NCBI GenBank assembly: GCA_002688355.1
Contig: NZCT01000032.1
Location: 1 to 33,189, forward strand
DNA length: 33,189 bases
Direction: 5' to 3'
From: an archaeon
GTDB taxonomy: Archaea > Nanobdellota > Nanobdellia > SCGC-AAA011-G17 > GW2011-AR20
Positions within the stretch are counted from its first letter, which is position 1, and each line of letters opens with the position of its first letter. Below are positions 1-25,900 of the stretch, in pieces. Made by a program: the position numbers and the translations under genes. Under the pieces are notes generated by a model. It was not told the DNA's origin and searched no databases. It saw only the letters and a list, made by a program, of their open reading frames with translations.

Positions 1-230
1 CCTTTCTTAATCAATTCATTAATCCTTTTTCTAAATTCTTCAGAATCTTTGTAATACTCCATCTTATAGCTAATTAAGCTATCTTTACCATCTAAATCAG
101 AAAACTCTTCTCTTATAGGTCTTTTTAACCTAATTAAAGTATTACTTCTATCAGATACACAATAATATAATCTTCCCTTTACTTTTATAGGTTCTTCCCT
201 TAGTTTTGGTTTTAAACTTTCAAATACCAT
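1..230 (-). CDS. Partial second copy of the 90-aa unknown protein, cut by window edge
   Basis: This minus-strand frame starts at an ATG at 230 and runs off the left edge of the window. Its first ~76 codons stay open and match the 90-aa protein encoded at 3302-3574, with a few substitutions (for example EEP instead of PDA near residue 12). An AGGAG Shine-Dalgarno-like sequence lies about 5 nt before the ATG, as in the other copy. The preserved frame suggests that the copy was still under selection or was duplicated recently. No domain is recognised. Whether a radical SAM gene also follows it beyond the edge cannot be seen here. Confidence 0.6.
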   Translation of the reverse strand, partial: MVFESLKPKLREEPIKVKGRLYYCVSDRSNTLIRLKRPIREEFSDLDGKDSLISYKMEYYKDSEEFRKRINELIKK

Positions 231-332
231 TTTTCTCCTATGAATATCGAATCTACAAGAATTCCTCTCTTTATTACTAAGAGCTACTTTAACAATAGAA
301 TTAATCCTTATAAGCTTATGTCTTATAGTACC

Positions 333-377
333 TTAAGCAACCTTAAGACATCTTAAGATATATTAAGAAACATTAAG
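333..377. promoter_or_regulatory. Five TTAAG boxes at exact 10-bp spacing, copy 1
   Basis: TTAAG occurs at 333, 343, 353, 363 and 373, one per helical turn, so all boxes face the same side of the DNA. A degenerate sixth unit may lie at 321-330. The array ends about 13 bp before the TATA-like box of the plus-strand gene. On the minus strand it lies beyond a TATA-like element near 306-315. All five cores are unchanged in copy 2, although spacer bases differ. This fits a multi-site operator for a cooperatively binding regulator; the regulator is not identified. Confidence 0.7.
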
Positions 378-427
378 TTTTTAGATAGATTTAAAAATGC
401 TTATTTCTTATTAATATACAGTAAAAA

Positions 428-445
428 AGAGGTATAAAAGCCTCT
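428..445 (+). promoter_or_regulatory. Leader hairpin AGAGG-N8-CCTCT, copy 1
   Basis: AGAGG (428-432) and CCTCT (441-445) can pair around an 8-nt loop. The TATA-like box at 390-399 predicts transcription start near 418-421, so the hairpin would form in the 5' leader, followed by GGAG at 460-463. It is conserved exactly in copy 2. It could act in RNA or be a DNA operator just downstream of the start site. Confidence 0.4.
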
Positions 446-474
446 AAAGTTAATTCTTTGGAGTATTATGAAAA

Positions 475-714
475 ATGGTTAATTTAACACTAATAAGACA
501 CGCAGAATCTTTAGCTAATGCAAAAAGAATAACAAAAGAACATAAGACAGATGAACCTTTTAGAGGCCCTAACAATTTTAAAGAAGATAATTTCGAATAT
601 AAAGATGAAAACAAAGGTTCTATAGAGAATTTTAAAGGGGTAGAGAGAATTTTTTATAAAGGAAAAGAAGTTTATAGATTATATTATCATGGTGGTGTTA
701 TCAAGAATAAATAA
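475..714 (+). pseudogene. Histidine phosphatase (phosphoglycerate-mutase-like) remnant
   Basis: The 79-residue frame begins with LTLIRHAESLANA, the RHG/RHxES phosphohistidine motif of the histidine phosphatase superfamily (R8, H9). It ends with YHGGVIKNK, which resembles the second catalytic motif SHGGVI. Family members are usually 180-220 residues, so about 100 residues between the motifs and the C-terminal part appear to be missing. The gene sits directly behind the duplicated promoter cassette. The GGAG at 460-463 is best placed for an ATG at 468, which opens a 4-codon frame ending at 482; the phosphatase ATG at 475 overlaps it in another frame. The protein is probably inactive. The coding potential could be a decayed remnant or a repurposed short peptide. 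Confidence 0.6.
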
Positions 715-3305: not shown

Positions 3306-3574
3306 TTCCCATCCTTATACAAATTCAATAAAAAAGGAATTTCTCCTTTCTTAATCAATTCATTAATCCTTTTTCTAAATTCTTCAGAATCTTTGTAATA
3401 CTCCATCTTATAGCTAATTAAGCTATCTTTACCATTTAAATCAGAAAACTCTTCTCTAATAGGTCTCTTTAATCTAATTAAAGTATTACTTCTATCAGAT
3501 ACACAGTAATACAATCTTCCCTTTACTTTTATAGCATCCGGTCTTAGTTTTGGTTTTAAACTTTCAAATACCAT
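3302..3574 (-). CDS. Unknown 90-aa protein, first gene of radical SAM operon
   Basis: This short soluble protein is rich in Lys, Arg and Glu and has no recognised domain. A segment such as GRLYYCVSDRSNTLIRLKR could form a small beta fold, and a helical tail follows. AGGAG lies about 5 nt before the ATG, after a leader of about 55 nt if the TATA-like TTATAAG near 3650-3657 is used. The stop overlaps the radical SAM start by ATGA, so the two are probably translated together. The small size and coupling would fit a radical SAM accessory or substrate-presenting protein, or a precursor peptide, but nothing in the sequence proves this. A close paralogue lies at 1-230. Confidence 0.7.
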   Translation of the reverse strand: MVFESLKPKLRPDAIKVKGRLYYCVSDRSNTLIRLKRPIREEFSDLNGKDSLISYKMEYYKDSEEFRKRINELIKKGEIPFLLNLYKDGK

Positions 3575-3676
3575 TTTTCTCCTATGAATATCGAATCTAC
3601 AAGAATTCCTCTTTTTATTACTAAGAGCTACTTTAATATTAGAATTAATCCTTATAAGCTTATGTCTTATAGTATC

Positions 3677-3721
3677 TTAAGCAACCTTAAGCTATCTTAA
3701 GATATATTAAGAAACATTAAG
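3677..3721. promoter_or_regulatory. Five TTAAG boxes at exact 10-bp spacing, copy 2
   Basis: TTAAG occurs at 3677, 3687, 3697, 3707 and 3717. The array sits between two divergent TATA-like elements: TTATAAG near 3650-3657 for the minus-strand operon and TTTAAAAATG near 3734-3743 for the AbrB-PhoU gene. It could therefore control both directions. The adjacent gene starts with an AbrB-type DNA-binding domain, making autoregulation a reasonable but untested idea. Confidence 0.7.
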
Positions 3722-3771
3722 ATTTTAGATAGATTTAAAAATGCTTATTTCTTATTAATATACAGTAAAAA

Positions 3772-3789
3772 AGAGGTATAAAAGCCTCT
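3772..3789 (+). promoter_or_regulatory. Leader hairpin AGAGG-N8-CCTCT, copy 2
   Basis: Identical to 428-445. It lies in the predicted leader of the AbrB-PhoU mRNA, followed by GGAG at 3804-3807. Confidence 0.4.
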
Positions 3790-3817
3790 AAAGTTAATTC
3801 TTTGGAGTTTATTGAAA

Positions 3818-4720
3818 ATGAAACGTAAAATAATACAATTAGCACCAAAAACAAAAGTAATCACAATACCTAATGAATTTACAATAAATAATAAACTAAA
3901 CAAAGGAGATTTCCTAGACGTAGAAATAGTAAATAATTCTTTAATTATAACTAACACAAATAATAACAAATCAGAAATATTACTAGACTTAACTAGTTTA
4001 TCTGAAGACCTAATCTGGAGGCATTTAATAACTTCATATAGAAAAGGAACTGATATTATTAAAATTAAACACAATAATAAAGATTTAAAAATTATTCAAA
4101 ATTTAATAAAAGATCTAATGGGGATGGCTATAGTAAAACAAAATAAAGAATTAATAATAGTAAAAGACTTATTCAATAAACATGATATTAACATAAAAGA
4201 TACTATAGATAGAGTTTTTAAATTATTAATAGAAGAATCAGAAGAAACTTTACAAGCTTTAAAAGATAATGATAAAACTTCTCTAAAAAACATAGATTTA
4301 CTAGATTTTAATATTAATAGGTTTACTAATTTATATTTAAGAGTTTTAAATAAATATTCTTTTCAAGAAGAGAAAATGTTATCTCTATATAAGATAATAT
4401 CTACTTTAGAAGAAATAGGAGATGAATATAGAAGAATAGCTAATGTAAATCTAAGATTAAAAGATATTAAAATTAATAAAAATATTTTAAATTATTTTTC
4501 TGAAGTTAATTTATTATTAAAAGAATTTTATTCTTTGTTTAATAAATATGATAAAGAAAAGATTATTACTTTTTATGAAAAAGAAGATTTACTTTTAGAA
4601 AATTTGAAAAAGAATTATAATAAAAGAAGTAGTAATGAAATTCAAATTTTATCTGGTTTAGATACTATTTTACATTTAATTAAATCTTTAATAGAGGAGA
4701 ACTTTGTTTTGAGTTTGTGA
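3818..4720 (+). CDS. AbrB/SpoVT DNA-binding domain fused to PhoU-like domain
   Basis: Residues 1-46 (from MKRKIIQLAPKTKVITIP) form a swapped-hairpin AbrB/SpoVT-type DNA-binding domain. The rest is an almost all-helical PhoU-like domain of about 200 residues, rich in Lys, Glu, Asn and Ile. Archaeal proteins of this architecture are annotated as phosphate uptake regulators, although no phosphate transporter genes are nearby. The ATG at 3818 lies 10 nt after GGAG; an in-frame TTG at 3812 lies only 4 nt after it and would add two residues. The promoter region carries the phased TTAAG array. The protein may bind the array and control both this gene and the divergent radical SAM operon (inference). 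Confidence 0.82.
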   Translation: MKRKIIQLAPKTKVITIPNEFTINNKLNKGDFLDVEIVNNSLIITNTNNNKSEILLDLTSLSEDLIWRHLITSYRKGTDIIKIKHNNKDLKIIQNLIKDLMGMAIVKQNKELIIVKDLFNKHDINIKDTIDRVFKLLIEESEETLQALKDNDKTSLKNIDLLDFNINRFTNLYLRVLNKYSFQEEKMLSLYKIISTLEEIGDEYRRIANVNLRLKDIKINKNILNYFSEVNLLLKEFYSLFNKYDKEKIITFYEKEDLLLENLKKNYNKRSSNEIQILSGLDTILHLIKSLIEENFVLSL

Positions 4721-16918: not shown

Positions 16919-16947
16919 TTTATATAGTGGAAAATTTAAAGAAAAAT

Positions 16948-17490
16948 ATGGTATTTGACATAACACAATTAAAAAAAATAAGAAAACAATTAGAATTAAC
17001 GCAACATCAATTTGCTAGTAAAGCTCAAATAAGTCAAAGTATGATAGCTAAGATAGAATCTAATAGACTAGATCCTACGTATTCTAAAGTTAAGAAAATA
17101 GAAGAAGCTTTAGATTTACTAACAAAAGAGCAAGAAAAAGAAGCCAAAGATATTATGAATAAAAGTATTATTTCTATAAGTCAAGATGAAAAAATATCTA
17201 ATATAATCAAGATTATGAATAAAAATGATATATCACAAGTACCTGTAATAAATAAAGATAAGATAATTGGATTAATTTCAGAAAGTTCTATATTAAATAA
17301 AGATTTAGATGAAGTAAAGAATTTAATTGCTAAAGATGTTATGGATAATTCTCCACCTATTATAGATAAAAATAGTAAAGTAGAAACTGTTAAACAATTA
17401 TTACAATATTATCCTTTAGTTTTAATTGAAGATAAAGGAAATTTAAAGGGTTTAATAACAAAAGCTGATTTGATTAAGAGTTTAGTTTAG
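16948..17490 (+). CDS. XRE-type HTH with CBS-domain pair
   Basis: The 180-aa protein starts MVFDITQLKKIRKQLELTQ and contains an XRE HTH (about residues 6-58, LTQHQFASKAQISQSMIAKIE). Two CBS repeats follow (about 70-120 and 125-180, VPVINKDKIIGLISE and KGLITKADLIK). Archaeal HTH-CBS proteins are regulators thought to sense adenine nucleotides through the CBS pair. A GTG at 16927 is in frame, but it would lie only about 3 bp past the TATA-like box (16917-16924), so the ATG at 16948, about 25 bp downstream, is preferred. Its last 39 nt are duplicated at 21075-21113. Confidence 0.88.
   Translation: MVFDITQLKKIRKQLELTQHQFASKAQISQSMIAKIESNRLDPTYSKVKKIEEALDLLTKEQEKEAKDIMNKSIISISQDEKISNIIKIMNKNDISQVPVINKDKIIGLISESSILNKDLDEVKNLIAKDVMDNSPPIIDKNSKVETVKQLLQYYPLVLIEDKGNLKGLITKADLIKSLV
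17452..17490 (+). repeat. Repeat A: 3' end of HTH-CBS gene (39 bp)
   Basis: Identical to 21075-21113, in the same orientation. It encodes the last 12 residues (LITKADLIKSLV) and the TAG stop. Confidence 0.95.
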
Positions 17491-17549
17491 TATTCTATAG
17501 TGGTAAAAATAGATAAATTTATAAACATGAAATTTTTTATATTCTTAAA

Positions 17550-18239
17550 ATGGATAGTAGAGAATTAGTAACTAATGGAAGAGAATTTTACGATAAAGGA
17601 ATGTCCAAAGCATTAGCATATTTGCAAAGTGAAGGTTATACAGCTTTATTTATTCCTCAATTAGCAGACATAAGAATTGAATCTAATATTGATTCAAAGA
17701 TTTGGCAAAATGAATATGCTAGCACAAGTCTAGTAGTTACAGGAAGATATAAGGATGATGGAAAAGCGACTTCACCAGTTGAAACTCTTTTTGTTCATGT
17801 TCCACATTTTCTTTCTAATTCAAAGAATTTAATAAGAGCAATTAGAGATAGAAAAGCAAGAACAGAAGACATGTGGCCTAAACATAGGGGAGCAGTAAAA
17901 GTACCTCAAGAAGAATATGATAGATTAAGAGGTATGGTAAATGATGAAAATATCTTTGTTGTTAATCATAGAACCTTAGTGGAAAATAACTATGATTCTC
18001 TTCATATAGATGATGCTTTAGAACATCCTCAAACAATACCTTTCTTAGGTGGAGAAGAAAGAGCAATAAAATATCTTAAGAAATATTCAAATCTTTCAGA
18101 TAGGATAACTATTATGTATGGTGAAGATTTACCAGAAGAACCAATGGGACGTTTTTTATTTCTCGGGTCAAATAATAAAGTTGCATCTCTTAGTGCTATT
18201 AATTGCTTTTATAATCCTGGAAGATTTATTGGTGTATAG
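17550..18239 (+). CDS. Unknown 229-aa protein
   Basis: No family recognised. The protein is soluble, with an N-terminal helical part (NGREFYDKGMSKALAYLQSEGY) followed by beta-rich segments (ALFIPQLADIRIE, STSLVVTGRY, VETLFVHVPHFL). A middle section has MWPKHRGAVKVP, and the end reads MGRFLFLGSNNKVASLSAI. Trp, His and Pro content is higher than in neighbouring Lys/Ile-rich proteins, which fits an acquired gene. ATTTATAAAC about 28 bp before the ATG indicates a leaderless mRNA. It is the first gene of cassette 1 between repeats A and B and ends 33 bp from the convergent trmB-type gene. Confidence 0.65.
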   Translation: MDSRELVTNGREFYDKGMSKALAYLQSEGYTALFIPQLADIRIESNIDSKIWQNEYASTSLVVTGRYKDDGKATSPVETLFVHVPHFLSNSKNLIRAIRDRKARTEDMWPKHRGAVKVPQEEYDRLRGMVNDENIFVVNHRTLVENNYDSLHIDDALEHPQTIPFLGGEERAIKYLKKYSNLSDRITIMYGEDLPEEPMGRFLFLGSNNKVASLSAINCFYNPGRFIGV

Positions 18240-18272
18240 TTATAAAAATTCTCCAGATGATCTTATAGAAGA

Positions 18273-19013
18273 TTAACCAGATATTTTCCATAATTCATTA
18301 AAAAATTGATTGTATCTTAATGCAATATCTTGGCTTTCAATTGTAAAAGATAAAATTTTACTAGAAAAATATATTGTTGAGACTGAATCTTTTGTTATTA
18401 CTAAATATGCAGGAGAAACTGAATTTGATCTCTTTGTAAAAGTTATTTTTTTCTTTTTGCTTTCACTCCACCATTTATCATCCCAAGAAACAGCATCTTT
18501 GTTTGTTATTATTTTACAAATAGAATTTTTTTTAACTCTTCTTTTTTGCCAATCTTTTAAATAACCTCCTGCTTCTTCTCCTATTTTCTTTGGTGAGCCA
18601 AGAATTAAAACATTATCATTTTTGTTTAATTTAGAAAGTATTTTTTCTAGAATTGTTTTCATTCCTTTTATACCTTCAAAAGAATTTAACATATTAGTAG
18701 GTGTGGAAATATTTTTTCTAGATTTTAAAATCTTAATAACAACACCCATATCTTTTTCTATATTATTTAATTTATTTTTTTCATCATCTATTATTGCTGA
18801 TAAAGTAGAAGGTTCTGAAGGTGAAAAATACTGTTTCCCATTTTTATTTATTGAACTAACCAAACCTTTCTCAGATAACCTTTTCAGAATATCATATATT
18901 TTAGAATGAGAAACTCCGGAAATTTTTAAAATATTTCCTACAGAACTTTCTCCTATCTCTATTAATGCTTGATATACTTTTGATTCTCCTTCTGTTAATA
19001 ATGGTATTTTCAT
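18273..19013 (-). CDS. TrmB-family transcriptional regulator
   Basis: The 246-aa protein has a TrmB-type winged HTH (residues 5-65; LTEGESKVYQALIEIGESS, then HSKIYDILKRLSEKGLV). A coiled coil (75-100) and a C-terminal phospholipase-D-like ligand domain follow (VLILGSPKKIGEE, with WDDKWWSESKKK further on). Related archaeal regulators respond to sugars, but the full sugar-binding TrmB domain is not obvious here. A TATA-like TTTTAAAAATAA precedes the ATG by about 20 bp on this strand. The region shared with the divergent 125-residue-frame gene contains an inverted repeat, a likely operator. Confidence 0.82.
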   Translation of the reverse strand: MKIPLLTEGESKVYQALIEIGESSVGNILKISGVSHSKIYDILKRLSEKGLVSSINKNGKQYFSPSEPSTLSAIIDDEKNKLNNIEKDMGVVIKILKSRKNISTPTNMLNSFEGIKGMKTILEKILSKLNKNDNVLILGSPKKIGEEAGGYLKDWQKRRVKKNSICKIITNKDAVSWDDKWWSESKKKKITFTKRSNSVSPAYLVITKDSVSTIYFSSKILSFTIESQDIALRYNQFFNELWKISG

Positions 19014-19047
19014 ATAATAACAAGAATTTTTTTATTTTTAAAACTTT

Positions 19048-19063
19048 CCCTTATTAGTGAGGG
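19048..19063. promoter_or_regulatory. Inverted repeat between divergent trmB-type and unknown genes
   Basis: CCCTTA (19048-19053) and TGAGGG (19058-19063) form a 6-bp inverted repeat with one G-T pair around TTAG. It lies between the TATA-like box of the regulator (about 19033-19044, minus) and that of the rightward gene (about 19066-19077). GC-rich arms stand out in this AT-rich region. It is a likely operator of the TrmB-family protein. Confidence 0.5.
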
Positions 19064-19108
19064 GGTAATATTAATATAGAAACTAATTGTTTGAATAGTT
19101 ATAATAAA

Positions 19109-19468
19109 ATGAAATTAAGTCAACCTAAAAAAATTGGAAATATTTACAACATACATGAAGGATATAGTGGATTTCCTTCTGAGTACTCTAGTGAGCTAAA
19201 AAAACTCTATTTTGAGAAAGATATAAAATTAATAGATTTTAGAGATTATTTTATTTATTATTTATGGGGAAATGATTTTCATACACATGGAGAGAGTGAT
19301 ACTAAACTGGATATCACAACAGGGCAATATGAAATATATGAATTATTTGGAATAATAGATGAAAACCATGTATATTCCATGAGCGACAGGTTAGATAAAT
19401 GTGTAGAAGGGTACAACCCTTATGAGCATGTGCCAAAAGAAATATTAGATATTATAACAGAGAGTTGA
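19109..19468 (+). CDS. Unknown 119-aa protein
   Basis: No family recognised. Starting at ATG 19109 the protein begins MKLSQPKKIGNIYNIHEGYSG; an in-frame TTG at 19091 would add six residues but fits the TATA-like box at 19066-19077 less well. The sequence is rich in Tyr, His and Asp (for example YYLWGNDFHTHGESD) and has no membrane segment. The cluster of His and Asp could bind metal, but no known motif matches. It is divergent from the trmB-type regulator and therefore a plausible target of it. Confidence 0.6.
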   Translation: MKLSQPKKIGNIYNIHEGYSGFPSEYSSELKKLYFEKDIKLIDFRDYFIYYLWGNDFHTHGESDTKLDITTGQYEIYELFGIIDENHVYSMSDRLDKCVEGYNPYEHVPKEILDIITES

Positions 19469-19539
19469 ATAGATTTGTAACTATTTTTAAATGGTAACCT
19501 TTAAATAGCGTATGAGGACCATAATTATATAAATGAAAA

Positions 19540-20484
19540 ATGGTAAAAAAAAATAATCTGCCTATGCTTCGTCTTACTAGAGATGTTCCAATAGAAGGAC
19601 ACCATAGCTATATTAGAGAAAAATGTGAAAAAGAAGCTAAAAAATACCCTAGACGTAAACTTAACCAACAGAGATATCTAATTAAAAGTAATTGTAATGA
19701 AAGATTAGAGGATAATGATTTAGAAGAATTAGTAAACTTTTCTGTAATCTATGGAAGTTACAAACTTGGAATAAATAAAATCGGCCACATGGTCGACATT
19801 GGGTTAAGTCCAGATGAAATTATTAACATTTATATGACAAGATTTAATGAAAGAGTAGAAATAGCAAAAATATTCGGTCAAGATTATATAAAAGATTATA
19901 TAAAAATTTTTGATGAAAGGCAAAAAATGCCTGATTTATTTAGAATCATTGATATCCATTTCAAACCTTATTTTGGAAACTCTGGTTTATTACATATGCC
20001 TTTGCCAAATTATGATGCAATTTCTCAAAAGGAAATTGAATTGATAGAAGAAAATTTTTTAAGATTGATAGAATATGGATATGTTTCTCAAGATTATCTG
20101 CTAAATAAAAATTCATTAAATCGTTATGTAAAGGATTATTGTCTGTCATTGATAGATCAGAAAAAAATACCCGGATTAATTGAAATTTTAAGTAAAAAAA
20201 AGTTCATTCAAGAAAATAGCGATTATTATGAAATAACTAATGAAGGAATTCTTTTTTACGAAGAACAAAGAGAATTGAATCACAAATTAAACTATAAGAT
20301 ATTAGCAAATGAATTTGAAGCTCAGTTTAATGATCACTATAGCAATGAATTTGAAGTTCCTTTTAATGATTATTACTTTCGAGAGTTTGAATATGAAATT
20401 TTTTTTGAACAGGAATTTCTCCATCCAGCTTTGAATCTTATGATGTTTGAAATTGATGAAAGACAATTTTGTTTTGTTCAATAA
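19540..20484 (+). CDS. Unknown 314-aa protein with C-terminal acidic repeats
   Basis: No family recognised. The body (residues 1-240) is helical and charged. A short segment near 200-245 (IPGLIEILSKKKFIQENSDYYEITNEG) resembles a winged-helix wing, so a DNA-binding role is possible. Residues 257-292 contain tandem 12-residue repeats of the form NEFExxFNDxYx, two clear and a third degenerate, strongly acidic and aromatic. The tail is hydrophobic-acidic. The ATG at 19540 overlaps an out-of-frame ATG at 19533 that opens a 7-codon frame. Upstream, two TATA-like elements lie in an imperfect inverted repeat (19481-19508). Last gene of cassette 1; repeat B begins 4 nt after its stop. Confidence 0.65.
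   Translation: MVKKNNLPMLRLTRDVPIEGHHSYIREKCEKEAKKYPRRKLNQQRYLIKSNCNERLEDNDLEELVNFSVIYGSYKLGINKIGHMVDIGLSPDEIINIYMTRFNERVEIAKIFGQDYIKDYIKIFDERQKMPDLFRIIDIHFKPYFGNSGLLHMPLPNYDAISQKEIELIEENFLRLIEYGYVSQDYLLNKNSLNRYVKDYCLSLIDQKKIPGLIEILSKKKFIQENSDYYEITNEGILFYEEQRELNHKLNYKILANEFEAQFNDHYSNEFEVPFNDYYFREFEYEIFFEQEFLHPALNLMMFEIDERQFCFVQ
20308..20379 (+). repeat. Two tandem 36-bp coding repeats (12 aa each)
   Basis: Units 20308-20343 and 20344-20379 both read NEFExxFNDxYx. A third, degenerate unit (REFEYEIFFE) follows. They expand an acidic-aromatic segment near the C-terminus of the 314-aa protein. Confidence 0.8.
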
Positions 20485-20488
20485 GAAT

Positions 20489-20526
20489 TTAGAACAGTAA
20501 AAACATATATTTTTAAATAGATTAAA
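20489..20526 (+). repeat. Repeat B, first copy (38 bp)
   Basis: Identical to 22002-22039. Weaker similarity continues about 13 bp further (to about 20539), which in the second copy reaches the mscS ATG. Here no mscS sequence follows. Confidence 0.93.
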
Positions 20527-20595
20527 GTTCTAATAGTAATAATTAATTCTTAACTATTTAAATTTAAATAATCCTTGTATTTTGTTTCAAACGGA

Positions 20596-21000
20596 TTAAG
20601 AAGAATATTTACTACTTTCTTTTCCTAAAATCTCTACAATTCCTGAAATAATATTCCATGCTTTCTCATACTTAAAGTTTATATTCGGGTCTGGATTAGA
20701 AACATCTGCCAGAAATCTGTCCAAAACATCTTGTTTTTCATAATATTTGGCAGATGATAATGCTGGATTTTGATAATGTCTAATTTTAACTGATTCTCTG
20801 TTTATTACATCTACTTTTGCCCAATCAAAATCTTCTAATATTCTTCTAACAATACTAAACTCATTTTTCTTTAAATATTTTTTTTGCACATCTTCAGAAT
20901 AAACAACAGGCCCAGCTCCATAACTATCTAAAGTTTCTACCTTCTGTGAATATAGAACATACCTGGATTCTTCATCTAACCTTAGTGCACTAATTGCCAT
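20596..21000 (-). CDS. Unknown 134-aa protein
   Basis: No family recognised. A soluble alpha/beta protein starting MAISALRLDEESRYVLYSQ, with VRRILEDFDWAKVDVINRESVKIRHYQ in the middle and an amphipathic C-terminal helix (AWNIISGIVEILGKESS). GTTTATAAATA on this strand lies roughly 30 bp before the ATG. It sits alone between the first repeat B and the second repeat A, that is, between the two cassettes. Confidence 0.6.
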   Translation of the reverse strand: MAISALRLDEESRYVLYSQKVETLDSYGAGPVVYSEDVQKKYLKKNEFSIVRRILEDFDWAKVDVINRESVKIRHYQNPALSSAKYYEKQDVLDRFLADVSNPDPNINFKYEKAWNIISGIVEILGKESSKYSS

Positions 21001-21074
21001 TTTATAAAATATAAATTGAATCTTTATTTATAAACTTTTCTATTTTAACCACTTTTGAATAATAATTAATTGGA

Positions 21075-21113
21075 TTAATAACAAAAGCTGATTTGATTAA
21101 GAGTTTAGTTTAG
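21075..21113 (+). repeat. Repeat A', second copy (39 bp)
   Basis: Identical to the last 39 nt of the HTH-CBS gene (17452-17490), including its TAG stop at 21111-21113. Just upstream the frame still reads LIG before LITKADL, as a CBS domain would, and then meets a stop at 21063-21065. It appears to be the end of a second HTH-CBS allele. The stop overlaps that of the convergent kinase gene. Confidence 0.93.
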
Positions 21114-21646
21114 CCCAATAAAGAATTAACAATATTGTCTATTTGTTTTATAACATTTTTATCTGTATTTATAGTATAATCAATTTTTTTTATTGGTTTC
21201 CAATTTGATTTCATATTTTTATAAACTTTATATCTTGATTTTTGATCACCAACCATGCGATGAGATTCATGAGGGTTATTAAAAATTCTACCTTTTACTG
21301 CTTTTTCTGAGCATTTTAGTTCTATTATTATTAATTTAGTGTTTTTTAAAGAATAAAATAATTTTCTAGTTTCGACAATATCAAAACATGTATCTAAAAT
21401 AATATAATCATATTTTTTAAGTTCTTTTTTTATTGCATTAACTTTAGCTTTATGAAATATAATTCTCTTTTTCTTTTGTTCTTTTAAAGATAGGTTAGGA
21501 AAATCAAATTTATTTTTTTCAGAATATTTCTTTGCAAACAAATCAGAATCAAAGTATAATGAATTTTTTAGCTTATTCTTTAATAATCTGGCTGTGTAAC
21601 TTTTTCCAACTGCTGGTAAGCCTGCTAGAATAATTAAACTATTCAT
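21110..21646 (-). CDS. P-loop kinase (AAA_33/zeta-toxin-like)
   Basis: The 178-aa protein has Walker A GLPAVGKSYTA (G9, G14, K15, S16), an acidic loop YFDSDLFAKKY, YDYIILDTCFD (Walker B-like, about residues 79-89) and a lid-like RIFNNPHESHR (about 120-130). This is the AAA_33 small P-loop kinase pattern shared with gluconate kinases, polynucleotide kinases and zeta toxins. The substrate is unknown, and no antitoxin-like partner overlaps it. Its stop overlaps the TAG of repeat A', so the gene was apparently arranged tail to tail with an HTH-CBS gene. First gene of cassette 2. Confidence 0.75.
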   Translation of the reverse strand: MNSLIILAGLPAVGKSYTARLLKNKLKNSLYFDSDLFAKKYSEKNKFDFPNLSLKEQKKKRIIFHKAKVNAIKKELKKYDYIILDTCFDIVETRKLFYSLKNTKLIIIELKCSEKAVKGRIFNNPHESHRMVGDQKSRYKVYKNMKSNWKPIKKIDYTINTDKNVIKQIDNIVNSLLG

Positions 21647-21751
21647 GGAAGTAAAATAATTAATATATTGATAAAACTATCTAATTATTTTAAAGAGCAA
21701 AAACATTATAAGTTTATATATTCCATAACAAATCATCTAAGGAAAATATAA

Positions 21752-22033
21752 ATGTCAATAACTTATAATGATTGGAAAGAAGAAGAAAGAATTAGACTCG
21801 AAGAAATAGTTGAAAATTCTGAAAATCATTCTAGATATTTTCATACTTTACTTGGTGATGAACCTTGGAAAGTAAAAGAACATATGCAATCTCGTAATTA
21901 TTTTAGAATGCTTGCTTCTAGTACAAGAAGAGATCTTAAAAAACTGGATGCTGATAAAAAATATCTTTCTTATTTATTTTTCGGAAAATTATTTGATTAT
22001 ATTAGAACAGTAAAAACATATATTTTTAAATAG
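21752..22033 (+). CDS. Unknown 93-aa helical protein
   Basis: No family recognised. The sequence is soluble and mostly helical, starting MSITYNDWKEEERIRLEEIV, with RRDLKKLDADKKYLSYLFFGKLFDY near the end split by short turns. Its last 10 codons (RTVKTYIFK and the stop) lie in repeat B and recur at 20489. AAGGAAA precedes the ATG by about 8 nt, and a TATA-like TTTATATT lies about 35 bp upstream. The mscS gene starts 20 bp after the stop. Confidence 0.55.
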   Translation: MSITYNDWKEEERIRLEEIVENSENHSRYFHTLLGDEPWKVKEHMQSRNYFRMLASSTRRDLKKLDADKKYLSYLFFGKLFDYIRTVKTYIFK

Positions 22034-22039
22034 ATTAAA
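22002..22039 (+). repeat. Repeat B', second copy (38 bp)
   Basis: Contains the last 32 nt of the 93-aa gene plus 6 nt and a TATA-like TTTTTAAATAG that may also serve mscS. Identical to 20489-20526. Confidence 0.95.
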
Positions 22040-22053
22040 TTCTTAGTGGTAAC

Positions 22054-22905
22054 ATGGTAAATGTATTAGATTATTTTGATTTTTTAGGTAATGTAGTCCC
22101 TGCGTTAAGGACAATTATAGTTGCAGTACTAGTTTTTGTAATATTTAATTTTATATTTAACAGAGTTAAGAATAGTTTATTAAAAATAGCTAAGACTAAA
22201 AAACAAATATCTAATGTTGAAATATTTTCAAGATTGTTAAAGTATGTTTTAATTTTGATTGTTGTTATATTTGCAATATTTTCATATTCTGGTTCTTTAA
22301 CTGGATTGGGAATTGGTATTGGTTTGTTTTCTGCTGCTTTAGGATGGGCTTTACAGAAACCAATAACTGGGATAGCTGGATGGATAATGGTTGTAACTAA
22401 AAGACCTTTTGAGATTGGAGATAGGATTATTATTGGTGATGTTAGAGGTGATGTTAAAGACATTAGTTTAACTCATATTTATTTAAGAGAAATTGGAGGT
22501 ATAGTTCAAGGTGAAGAAAACTCTGGAAGAATAATAATGGTGCCAAATTCTAAATTATTTGAGCAAGATATTACAAATTATACTTTACAAGATGAATATG
22601 TTTTAGATCAAGTTTCTGTTACTATAACATATGAGAGTAATTTAGATAATGCAATGAAAGTTATTTTACAAGCTACTAAGAGAGTTTTAGATAAATATGT
22701 TCAAGGATCTAAGAAAGAGCCTTATATTAGAACATTTTTTAGAGCAGATGGTGTTGATGTTAGAGTTAGATATTTTACACCTGCACATAATTTACAAGAG
22801 ATTAATAGTTATATAACTCAAGAAATTTTAAAAATAATACATAAGAATAAAGATGTTGAGATTGCATATCCACATACTGAAGTTATTTATAGAGAGAAAG
22901 ATTAA
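22054..22905 (+). CDS. mscS: MscS-family mechanosensitive channel
   Basis: The 283-aa protein has three membrane segments (about residues 16-36, 58-82, 84-112). The third is Gly/Ala-rich (LGIGIGLFSAALGWALQKP), the pore helix pattern of MscS. A cytoplasmic beta domain follows (RPFEIGDRIIIGDVRGDVKDISL) with the conserved PNSKLF motif, then the C-terminal alpha/beta domain. MscS channels open on membrane tension and release solutes during hypo-osmotic shock. The length is normal for the family. The stop overlaps the convergent protease gene by 4 bp. Confidence 0.93.
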   Translation: MVNVLDYFDFLGNVVPALRTIIVAVLVFVIFNFIFNRVKNSLLKIAKTKKQISNVEIFSRLLKYVLILIVVIFAIFSYSGSLTGLGIGIGLFSAALGWALQKPITGIAGWIMVVTKRPFEIGDRIIIGDVRGDVKDISLTHIYLREIGGIVQGEENSGRIIMVPNSKLFEQDITNYTLQDEYVLDQVSVTITYESNLDNAMKVILQATKRVLDKYVQGSKKEPYIRTFFRADGVDVRVRYFTPAHNLQEINSYITQEILKIIHKNKDVEIAYPHTEVIYREKD

Positions 22906-25900
22906 TTCTTTTTCTTTTTAATAAAAATATAAGCTAAAATAATTAAAATTATAATTCCAATAATAATATATGCTGTGTAATCAGTTTTCCCTGGAGTTTC
23001 TTTTGAAGTTTTTGTTGTCTTTTCTTCAAATTCTATTTTCTTTAATGTTATTGGTTCTGTAAATTCATCTAATACTTCTAAACTAACTTTTTCTTTTACA
23101 GTGTAAAAAATCTTGAATTCTTCTTCTGGTTTTACATCTTCGTAAGTAAATAAAACAATTGGATCTGCTTTTACTATTGTTATATTTTTGCTTGTTAATG
23201 CGTTAACAGAAATATCTGAAATATCTTGAGCAAAAGTTTTTGGGATTTCATCATATAATAAGAAATTTTTAACTGTGGTTTTTCCAGAGTATTTTACATT
23301 TATAGTTACGATAGATTCATCTTTAGAACTTTTTAATTTTCTATTTATATTTGTATTCGGAATTGTATTAAATTGATTTTTTTTGTTTTCATCATAACCA
23401 AATGTTTTTTCTAAACCATCTTTTAAATCTGAGTTAGATTCTATTAAGTTTTTAGCGCTACCAGAACCAGAAGAGTCACTAGTTGTTTCTGAATCATAGG
23501 TTACTTCATTTTCTTCTACTGCTTTTGTTGTTATAGTATTACTATCACTAGAACCTGAAGAGCCTCCTCCACCTCCTGAAGAGCCTCCGCCTCCTCCACC
23601 TCCGCCTCCACCATCAGCAGCAGATGTTGCAAAATTACTTTGAGATGAATTAGCACAGTTATTACTTACATCACAAGAAGAGACATTATAGTAATATGTT
23701 GTTGAACTAGATAATGAACTTAAAGAAACTGAATGTGATTTGGTTAATGTTGAAGAAGTTGCTACTGAACTCAAAGTACTTGAATTTGTTCCATAATTTA
23801 CAGTTGAATTTGTATTTTCATCTGTTGTCCATGTTATTGTAGAACCAGTTGATGTTATAGAAGATGAAGTTACTGAGGTTATATTAGGATTTGTAATATC
23901 TCCTAAAGAACTAAAGTTTCTAGTTTCAGAAGTTCCTATATTATTAAAACTGTCTGTACAAGATATACTGTAATTGTAAGTAGCTGCTTGTAAGTTTGTT
24001 GTTATGTTTATATTGATATTTCTTGATATTGTAGAATTAAAAGTTTTATTAGTTACATCATTAATTGTTAATGTACAATTATTTAGAGAATGTATATCTG
24101 TTACATTAAATAAGAAGTCTATGTCAAATGCTGTTTGATTTATTGAATTGTTTGTTGGTTGAGATAAATTTATTACTGGTTGTGTTGAATCTACTGTAAT
24201 AGTGTAATTATCATGGAACTGAGCTAAATTTGAATTATTATCAGAAATTTGTATGTTCCATAGGTAAACTCCATCTGGAATATTTGTTAATGTTATATTT
24301 GTTTTATTTGAAGATCCTGTTACATTTAATGTTTTATTTGAGGTAAATGTTCCTGAGGTGTTTGTGTATAAAGTAAGGTTAGATATATTTTGATTATCTG
24401 TTCCAGTGAAGTTAAATATTATTAAACCATTGGAAGAATTGAGAAAGTTATTTGAATTTAATGTTACGTAAGGTGTTACTTCAAAAGATTGTGTAGTTGT
24501 GTTTATGTTATTGTTAGTATCGTTAACAGTTAAGGTTAAATTATATTTTCCATTTAATGTGTAGTTTGAAGAACTTAAAGTTAAATTTATTCCTGATAAA
24601 GATTCAAGTAATAAGGAACCATTTGGGTAAGATATATTTATTCTAAAAGTTTGTGTGTTTGTGTCTATTGCTGAGAAGTTTACTGTTATAGAATCTGTTT
24701 CATCGAATATTGAACGACTTATTGATAAGTTTACTTGAGGATTTTTATTATCTAAATGAGATAAAGCTTTTATTATATTAATTCTTGTGAAGTTTAACCC
24801 TGTGGAATCTGTAATGTTTTTTCCATTTTTTAATGCATTTTCATATTGTGTTTTGTTTAATGTTTCTGAGGATTCTCTATCTTTGTATTCTAATAATAAA
24901 GCTATTGCTCCTGATATAGTTGGTGTTGCAAATGAAGTCCCTGTTACTGAGGAAAAACCACCAAGATAATCTGTAGTGTTAATTGAAACTCCTGGAGCTA
25001 CAAAGTCTAGTAAATCAGATCTACTATGTGTAAGTACATCTGTTTTATCGACGCTGCCTGCGGCTGTTACATTTGCATTACAAGCTGGATGTGCTATTCC
25101 ATCTGTTTTAACTGTATTTCCTGCAGCAGCTATTAAGGCAATTCCATTACTAGTTGCATTTGCTAAATCCACATCAAAAACAGAAGAAACACATGGATTA
25201 CTTGTACTATATGAAGAAGCAGAACCAAAACTCATAGAGATTACACTTATATTGTAATCATCTTTATATTGAATACACCATTCTATTCCTGATGCTATGT
25301 CTGCATTTGTACATGTTGAAGGATTATCATCATTACAAACTTTTACAGCCAGGATTGTTGCATTCGGTGCTATTCCAATGATATTTCCTGCAGCTACTCC
25401 GGCTACATTAGTACCGTGGCCTGTGTTATCATAAGGATTATTATCATTATTAACAATATCTGTACCATTTAGAACTTTTTTACATGAACCATCGAAGAAA
25501 CTAGAATTTGAACAACCACCGAAGTAAGAATGAGTGTAATTTACACCTGAATCTAGGACACATATACCAATATCTTTTCCTGTTATATTAAAGTTATTTA
25601 TTATTTTTGAATGTGCTAATGTTGCATTTACTAATTCTGAAGAATCCTCTAGTTGGGTGTAATATTTTGTGTTGTAATATATTTTTTCTATTTCGTTATT
25701 TGTTATTAATTTTTCTAGACCACTTTTTGTTAGGTTCCCATAAACTCCATTAATAATCTTAAATTCTCTTTCTAATTTAAAATCTATATCTTCTGACGAA
25801 AGAGGTCTTAAAGTTTTTTTATTTAAGTCTAGAGTTTGTATTTCGTTTATCTCAGTTTTTTTATCTACATTTTCTTTGTAAACAATAATTACTTCTGATT

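Follow-up and report, generated by a model that had tools for sequence, protein, structure and literature searches.

The HTH-CBS to mscS interval

The window described here is a stretch of 33,189 nucleotides at the start of a contig (C32) from a Woesearchaeota-like, metagenome-assembled genome (MAG; G000), which comprises 32 contigs and 962 kb and is 97% complete and 3% contaminated. Between a gene for an HTH-CBS protein and a gene for an mscS-type mechanosensitive channel, the window contains two gene cassettes and two pairs of direct repeats, A/A' and B/B'. The order on the DNA is A, cassette 1, B, a 134-aa gene, A', a kinase and a 93-aa gene (cassette 2), B' and mscS, which is the A-B-A'-B' arrangement described in the original prediction. 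The genes, open reading frames (ORFs) and other features are as follows:

16927..17490, +, HTH-CBS gene, 187 aa, the host gene with A as its 3' end (Pfam CBS 6.9e-21, HTH_3 5.3e-13)
17452..17490, +, repeat A (39/39 against 21075-21113)
17491..17560, +, left inverted end, the 229-aa promoter/leader, which matches the 134-aa leader in inverted orientation (local score 36 against a null 95% of 20)
17550..18239, +, 229-aa protein of no known family, cassette 1 (no Pfam, PADLOC or NCBIfam match)
18273..19013, -, TrmB-type transcription regulator, cassette 1 (Pfam TrmB 3.5e-14)
19109..19468, +, 119-aa ORF, cassette 1 (no Pfam, PADLOC or NCBIfam family)
19540..20484, +, 314-aa ORF, cassette 1, with a weak winged-helix match near the C-terminus (HTH_45 E=0.003, below cut-off)
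20489..20526, +, repeat B, the copy without the 93-aa gene, 4 bp past the stop of the 314-aa gene (38/38 against 22002-22039)
20596..21000, -, 134-aa gene between B and A', the filler (relatives in few genomes)
20989..21061, -, right inverted end: promoter/leader of the 134-aa gene (inverted match to 17491-17560)
21075..21113, +, repeat A', the displaced HTH-CBS 3' end, with similarity from 21066 (identical to A)
21110..21646, -, P-loop kinase-like protein, 178 aa, cassette 2 (AAA_18 1.6e-7, KTI12 8.2e-7)
21752..22033, +, 93-aa ORF, cassette 2, its last 32 nt inside B' (no Pfam match)
22002..22039, +, repeat B', 93-aa ORF 3' end, shortly before mscS (identical to B)
22054..22905, +, mscS-type mechanosensitive channel gene, the right neighbour (NCBIfam MscS 2.8e-16, below curated cut-off)

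Repeat A is the 3' end of the HTH-CBS gene, as originally described, and comprises its last 13 codons including the stop. When 6 of 9 matches upstream are counted, the similarity spans 48 bp and the reading frame is kept (LKGLITKADLIKSLV and then the stop in A, LIGLITKADLIKSLV and then the stop in A'). Repeat B was thought to end just before the mscS ATG. It does adjoin mscS, but exact identity stops 14 bp before the ATG at 22054 and the first 32 nt of B' are the end of the 93-aa ORF, followed by 6 nt. A and B' are thus alike in being the 3' end of a gene. A longer extent, with B continuing into mscS or A' reaching deeper into the HTH-CBS gene, was considered and rejected, as the similarity there is not above that of shuffled sequence.

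The repeats are far above chance: when the whole window was shuffled 100 times (order-1), exact direct repeats with copies 250 bp or more apart reached 23 bp at most. In addition, A and B are each present exactly twice in the genome, and are therefore borders and not the common dispersed repeats that had been named as the alternative. The two are unrelated to each other and, beyond short chance matches, nothing else in the genome resembles either.

The genes of cassette 1 are as first described, except that the 119-aa ORF is 125 aa when read from an in-frame upstream TTG at 19091. PADLOC and NCBIfam assigned no function to the cassette genes beyond TrmB, kinase and MscS, and no toxin or toxin-antitoxin pair was recognised in the window cassettes by Pfam, PADLOC or NCBIfam. 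The interval was held to be without a visible integrase, and this is borne out: a Pfam search of it gave no integrase or transposase match, and none of the four tyrosine recombinase matches (PF00589) in the genome is on the window contig.

The 229-aa and 134-aa genes have in common about 70 bp of promoter and leader, which are inverted relative to one another (17491-17560 and 20989-21061). Within 0.73 Mb, the core motif AGTGGT(T)AAAATAG is found at these two sites only. This rules out a generic promoter as its source and instead indicates a promoter duplicated specifically at this locus. The shared leader is possibly an operator common to both genes, perhaps for the TrmB regulator that the cassette encodes.

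The start of the contig has a further and larger direct repeat (window 1-540 and 3345-3877), which is approximately 91% identical overall and 96-97% in its two main blocks. A 90-aa gene has its 5' part in this repeat, together with the divergent promoter next to it, and the repeat bounds NUDIX, P-loop kinase and radical-SAM-like genes.

The relatives compared are archaeon GW2011_AR20 (AR20; G002), which is a complete genome, and Woesearchaeota bins, with no same-genus genome among them. HTH-CBS orthologues are 70% (AR20) and 68% (G006) identical; in both genomes the flanking genes are unrelated and mscS does not adjoin. The mscS gene has no close orthologue in the family, and its best relative in the order (52%) comes from another family. 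A comparison with 103 genomes of the order gave no match for the 93-aa gene, matches in 3 genomes including its own for the 134-aa gene (with a 49% relative in G010), and matches in 18 (17 others) for the 229-aa gene, which is often multicopy in them. A viral origin was also considered and rejected: the viral contigs contain neither A nor B exactly and no relatives of the 229-aa or the 134-aa protein.

The interleaved order could be explained by two independent events, or by tandem duplication of the HTH-CBS to mscS interval followed by complementary losses. Such a history also gives interleaved flanks, and the 96-97% repeat elsewhere on the contig shows that local duplication happens. However, several exact deletions would be needed and, beyond A and B, the cassette 1 and cassette 2 intervals have no sequence in common. 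An origin of this kind is very unlikely.

Displaced gene tails at other loci

To place the locus in context, direct repeats outside paralogous coding regions were scanned in 0.73 of 0.96 Mb of the window's own genome and in 0.68 of 0.83 Mb of AR20. Few repeat pairs are present. Apart from fragments of repeat proteins and the starts of paralogous genes, they mostly consist of the tail of an intact gene that recurs past a cassette. In G000, G002, G006 and G013, about twelve more loci are built in this way, with the terminal 12-127 bp of an intact gene found again on the far side of a cassette of 0.4-3.6 kb. The host genes are ordinary and include HTH-CBS, VIT1, NUDIX, FeS-assembly, eS6, beta-lactamase-fold tRNase Z-like, VanZ, Dph2, methyltransferase and AspRS genes. 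In total, 13 loci duplicate a gene 3' end, and one duplicates a 5' end (window 199-474 and 3543-3818). These sister loci, with families assigned by Pfam matches, are:

Own genome, L090:10996-11540, VIT1 gene, ParE-type toxin pair
Own genome, L126:1081-1695, NUDIX gene, repeat of 51 bp ending at the stop codon
Own genome, L122, FeS-assembly gene
Own genome, L131, ribosomal protein eS6, aldo/keto reductase in the cassette
Own genome, L089, ATPase-like gene
Own genome, L078:9165-12243 (G000:C24, about 29.2-32.2 kb), 242-aa gene with three small cassettes in an array, a copy of the 242-aa tail region coming after each
AR20, L143, tRNase Z-like gene, 56 bp ending at the stop codon, MNT-type pair
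AR20, L151, VanZ, a HEPN/MNT cassette and a second cassette
AR20, L142, Dph2, Fic cassette
AR20, L216, methyltransferase, MNT/HEPN cassette
G006, L041, AspRS, HepT/MNT cassette
G006, L189, array with PIN and PemK toxins
G013, L169, Fic cassette

In three genomes from other families of the order, scanned over 200 kb each, G018 has one weak case, G013 has one (L169) and G016 has none. At AR20, a noncoding RNA as the border of the Fic locus was rejected, as there is no Rfam match. Separately, a sequence of 23-30 bp containing AACTTCTCTAAATTGCATAAGTT occurs four times in 2.5 kb near short genes in G006 (G006:C16, L188:327-2769), and may be a dispersed small element or an operator.

The cassettes were picked by their repeats and not by their cargo. 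Across the sister loci, the cargo is often RelE/ParE, HepT/MNT, HEPN or Fic genes, and a recognisable toxin-antitoxin pair is present at many of them, in contrast to the window locus. In the AR20 stretches analysed, 5 of 12 Fic and MNT-type genes are in repeat-bounded cassettes, which make up 1.0% of that sequence (P=7e-8). One of these five, a Fic gene at L143, has borders that are 86% identical and are not a gene end. In the window's own genome, none of the eight MNT-type matches is in a repeat-bounded cassette, and the cargo consists of ParE/YoeB-like toxins and unnamed genes. For example, one cassette of the L078 array has a YoeB/ParE-like toxin match and another has a match to DUF2283. 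A few kb upstream of this array are a tyrosine-recombinase match (G000:C24:23515-23901; 333-aa open frame, E 1.2e-9) and a Polbeta-type gene (24837-25082). The recombinase, the Polbeta-type gene and the array are possibly a genomic island.

The position of the repeats raises the question of site-specific integration, in which a trans-acting tyrosine recombinase would insert small, non-autonomous elements into the 3' ends of genes, with A/A' and B/B' as attachment sites. The 3'-end location, the restoration of the gene end on one side and the tandem arrays are all accounted for in this way, and tyrosine recombinases are present in 13 of 13 family genomes. Further, the repeats here take in the 3' end of the target gene, as in an integrase-borne genomic island, but no integrase gene lies inside the element. 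Pfam identified no recombinase among the examined cassette proteins at any locus. The length of the repeats ranges from 24 to 127 bp between loci, and the borders (A, B, VIT1, NUDIX and the others) are wholly different, so that one enzyme could not recognise them by sequence. Site-specific integration is rather doubtful. It is also quite unlikely that the family has a dedicated machinery through which small cassettes with accessory or toxin-antitoxin genes enter ordinary genes at their 3' ends, with the gene end regenerated each time and the target set by a copy of its tail borne on the cassette.

Proposed mechanism of cassette addition

The differences between the gene copy and the displaced copies bear on how the cassettes arrived. 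At VanZ in AR20, displaced copies 2 and 3 differ from one another at 1 of 95 sites, whereas comparison of each with the gene copy shows differences at 7 and 8 of 95. The coding changes in the gene copy are synonymous or mostly conservative. As copies 2 and 3 agree and the gene copy diverges, the gene end in this array has been replaced by a diverged orthologue, a pattern that is not what decay after target duplication would give. Consistent with this, the identity stops exactly at the stop codon in three loci (A, 39 bp; NUDIX, 51 bp; tRNase Z-like, 56 bp), as expected for recombination between two orthologues that differ in the DNA behind them. At two other loci, the intact and the displaced copy continue into C-terminal codons that are not the same (GRK and ADKSR for AspRS in G006; IFR and AYK for the AR20 methyltransferase). 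At the window locus, A' reads LIG, as does the AR20 orthologue, whereas gene copy A reads LKG. An origin of the copies from different orthologues is clear at VanZ; elsewhere, apart from LIG in A', the differences are too few. Over all loci, 12 of 23 changes between copies are synonymous (p=0.005 against 25%), an excess that is no more than suggestive; such changes could also arise in a gene copy evolving alone after insertion. The tandem arrays at the 242-aa gene and at VanZ show successive additions.

These observations also bear on a further possibility, which is that foreign DNA was caught at staggered double-strand breaks, or inserted by a transposase, with fill-in producing target duplications of 25-130 bp and the survivors being those insertions that spare both neighbours. 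This accounts for the arbitrary target sequence and repeat length. In addition, some repeats (eS6, VIT1) also include the likely promoter of the next gene, and the cassette at A has inverted ends of about 70 bp. However, the VanZ copies match each other and not the gene copy, the bias for 3' over 5' ends is strong, and one duplication alone cannot give A-B-A'-B'. The length of the duplication is not fixed but runs from 24 to 127 bp between loci, which argues against a transposase. Long inverted ends are present in only 1 of 20 cassettes, that at A, where they coincide with the homologous promoters and leaders of the 229-aa and 134-aa genes. A shorter one is significant at AR20 Dph2/Fic (L142, p=0.003), the one near the L143 Fic gene is weak (p=0.033) and, beyond L142, there are none worth the name. 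Terminal inverted repeats were therefore rejected as transposon ends, and the combination that defines a DNA transposon, such repeats together with a target duplication of fixed length, is absent. Target duplication is unlikely.

Instead, the locus probably records an additive, single-crossover (Campbell-like) integration, in which the incoming DNA brought an orthologous gene end; we assign this reading a probability of roughly 0.6. The donor would be DNA of a related strain with another cassette at this position, in the order gene end A, cassette 1, B and 134-aa gene, and it would have been circularised or joined through homology at one side only. The resident chromosome would have read HTH-CBS (A), kinase, 93-aa gene (B') and mscS. 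A crossover at A would then keep the HTH-CBS gene whole and insert cassette 1, B and the 134-aa gene behind it, leaving the original gene tail displaced as A' before the kinase. In this way, one event would produce A-B-A'-B', and we infer such a one-event history as the best fit for the order. The mirror event, a crossover at B in a resident with cassette 1, would give the same product. The same process has probably acted repeatedly at the 3' ends of other genes in this archaeal family.

There is precedent for single-crossover addition. In E. coli conjugation, 56 of 60 recombinants were attributed to a single crossover of circular molecules, and duplications of 109-950 bp were confirmed in 14 sequenced clones (PMC3240628). 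A circular-intermediate model was proposed for rhs displacement (PMC2935791), and homology-facilitated illegitimate recombination was proposed for arrays of the type VI secretion system (T6SS; PMC5361080).

Several points weigh against single-crossover addition. No strain with only cassette 1 or only cassette 2 was found, and no empty or circular form was seen, in a comparison that included no same-genus genome. At 39 bp, the homology is short for recombination. A ComEC-type uptake gene (PF03772) is present in 0 of 13 family genomes; the same is true of four archaeal controls. B is not attached to its gene, so that the donor order A, cassette 1, B is itself a reconstruction, and the origin of the 134-aa filler is not accounted for by the model. 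In a MAG, a single locus could be misassembled, but the complete AR20 genome shows the same architecture.

The original prediction, which saw in the interleaving a locus that gained a second cassette by recombination in a flank, with copies of both flanks left between the cassettes, fits this arrangement. Overall, its interpretation is partly supported: the support is for the two-copy borders and the recombination in a flank, and alternative cassettes between the same two neighbours in different strains are hypothetical. It did not include the genome-wide pattern of 3' ends.

Related systems and biological meaning

The closest likeness is to Rhs C-terminal displacement (Jackson et al. 2009, PMC2935791), where displaced pieces of a gene's 3' end lie downstream of the intact gene, separated from it by new DNA, and where tandem arrays and a crossover model with a circular intermediate are also described. 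The shared feature, a copy of the intact gene's 3' end downstream past inserted DNA, is found at A/A' and about 12 other loci. In Rhs, however, the displaced end is the variable toxin tip of the rhs gene. Here, in an archaeon, the hosts are ordinary genes that keep an essentially unchanged C-terminus, and a separate cassette forms the cargo. A polymorphic toxin with an exchangeable C-terminal domain, which characterises Rhs, contact-dependent inhibition (CDI) and T6SS systems, is not present among the host genes. The immunity-gene arrays of the Vibrio cholerae T6SS likewise grow by successive, one-sided additions that leave older 3' parts downstream, but are confined to effector-immunity modules (PMC5361080).

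Small variable segments in bacteria are also accessory segments between conserved genes, and 10-18% are flanked by direct repeats (PMC2884548). Most of those repeats are below 30 bp and, in the section consulted, neither a rule of gene 3' ends nor toxin-antitoxin cargo is described. Integron gene cassettes, including those of archaeal integrons (PMC9668308), resemble the locus as arrays of accessory genes with recurrent borders. They differ in that the interval has neither an integrase nor an attC-like common recombination site at every cassette end, and its borders are copies of a local gene.

As a control, 200 kb of E. coli K-12 was scanned. It contains a copy of the kdpE 3' end (145 bp, 90%) displaced beyond speF-potE, as well as an rhsC/ybfO fragment; thus, the phenomenon is not confined to archaea, and its frequency in this control is low. 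The two kdpE-type stretches lie at 716720-716864 and 721055-721199, and the displaced copy is the region of the ybfI pseudogene. This kdpE/ybfI case differs from the archaeal loci in being a single bacterial case in the control and in having a larger insert (about 4 kb). Within the literature collection searched, there was no paper on displaced gene tails in Woesearchaeota or DPANN. What appears to be new is the recurrence at ordinary genes of an archaeal family, together with cargo of the toxin-antitoxin type.

The genomes of DPANN archaea are tiny, and the means by which accessory genes are acquired are unclear. A duplicated gene tail past new DNA is a readable scar, by which recent gains can be found in a single genome without close relatives. 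The pattern suggests that gene 3' ends are general entry points. The bias in cargo further suggests the idea that repeat-flanked inserts are unstable and that addiction modules persist in them because losing these modules is costly.

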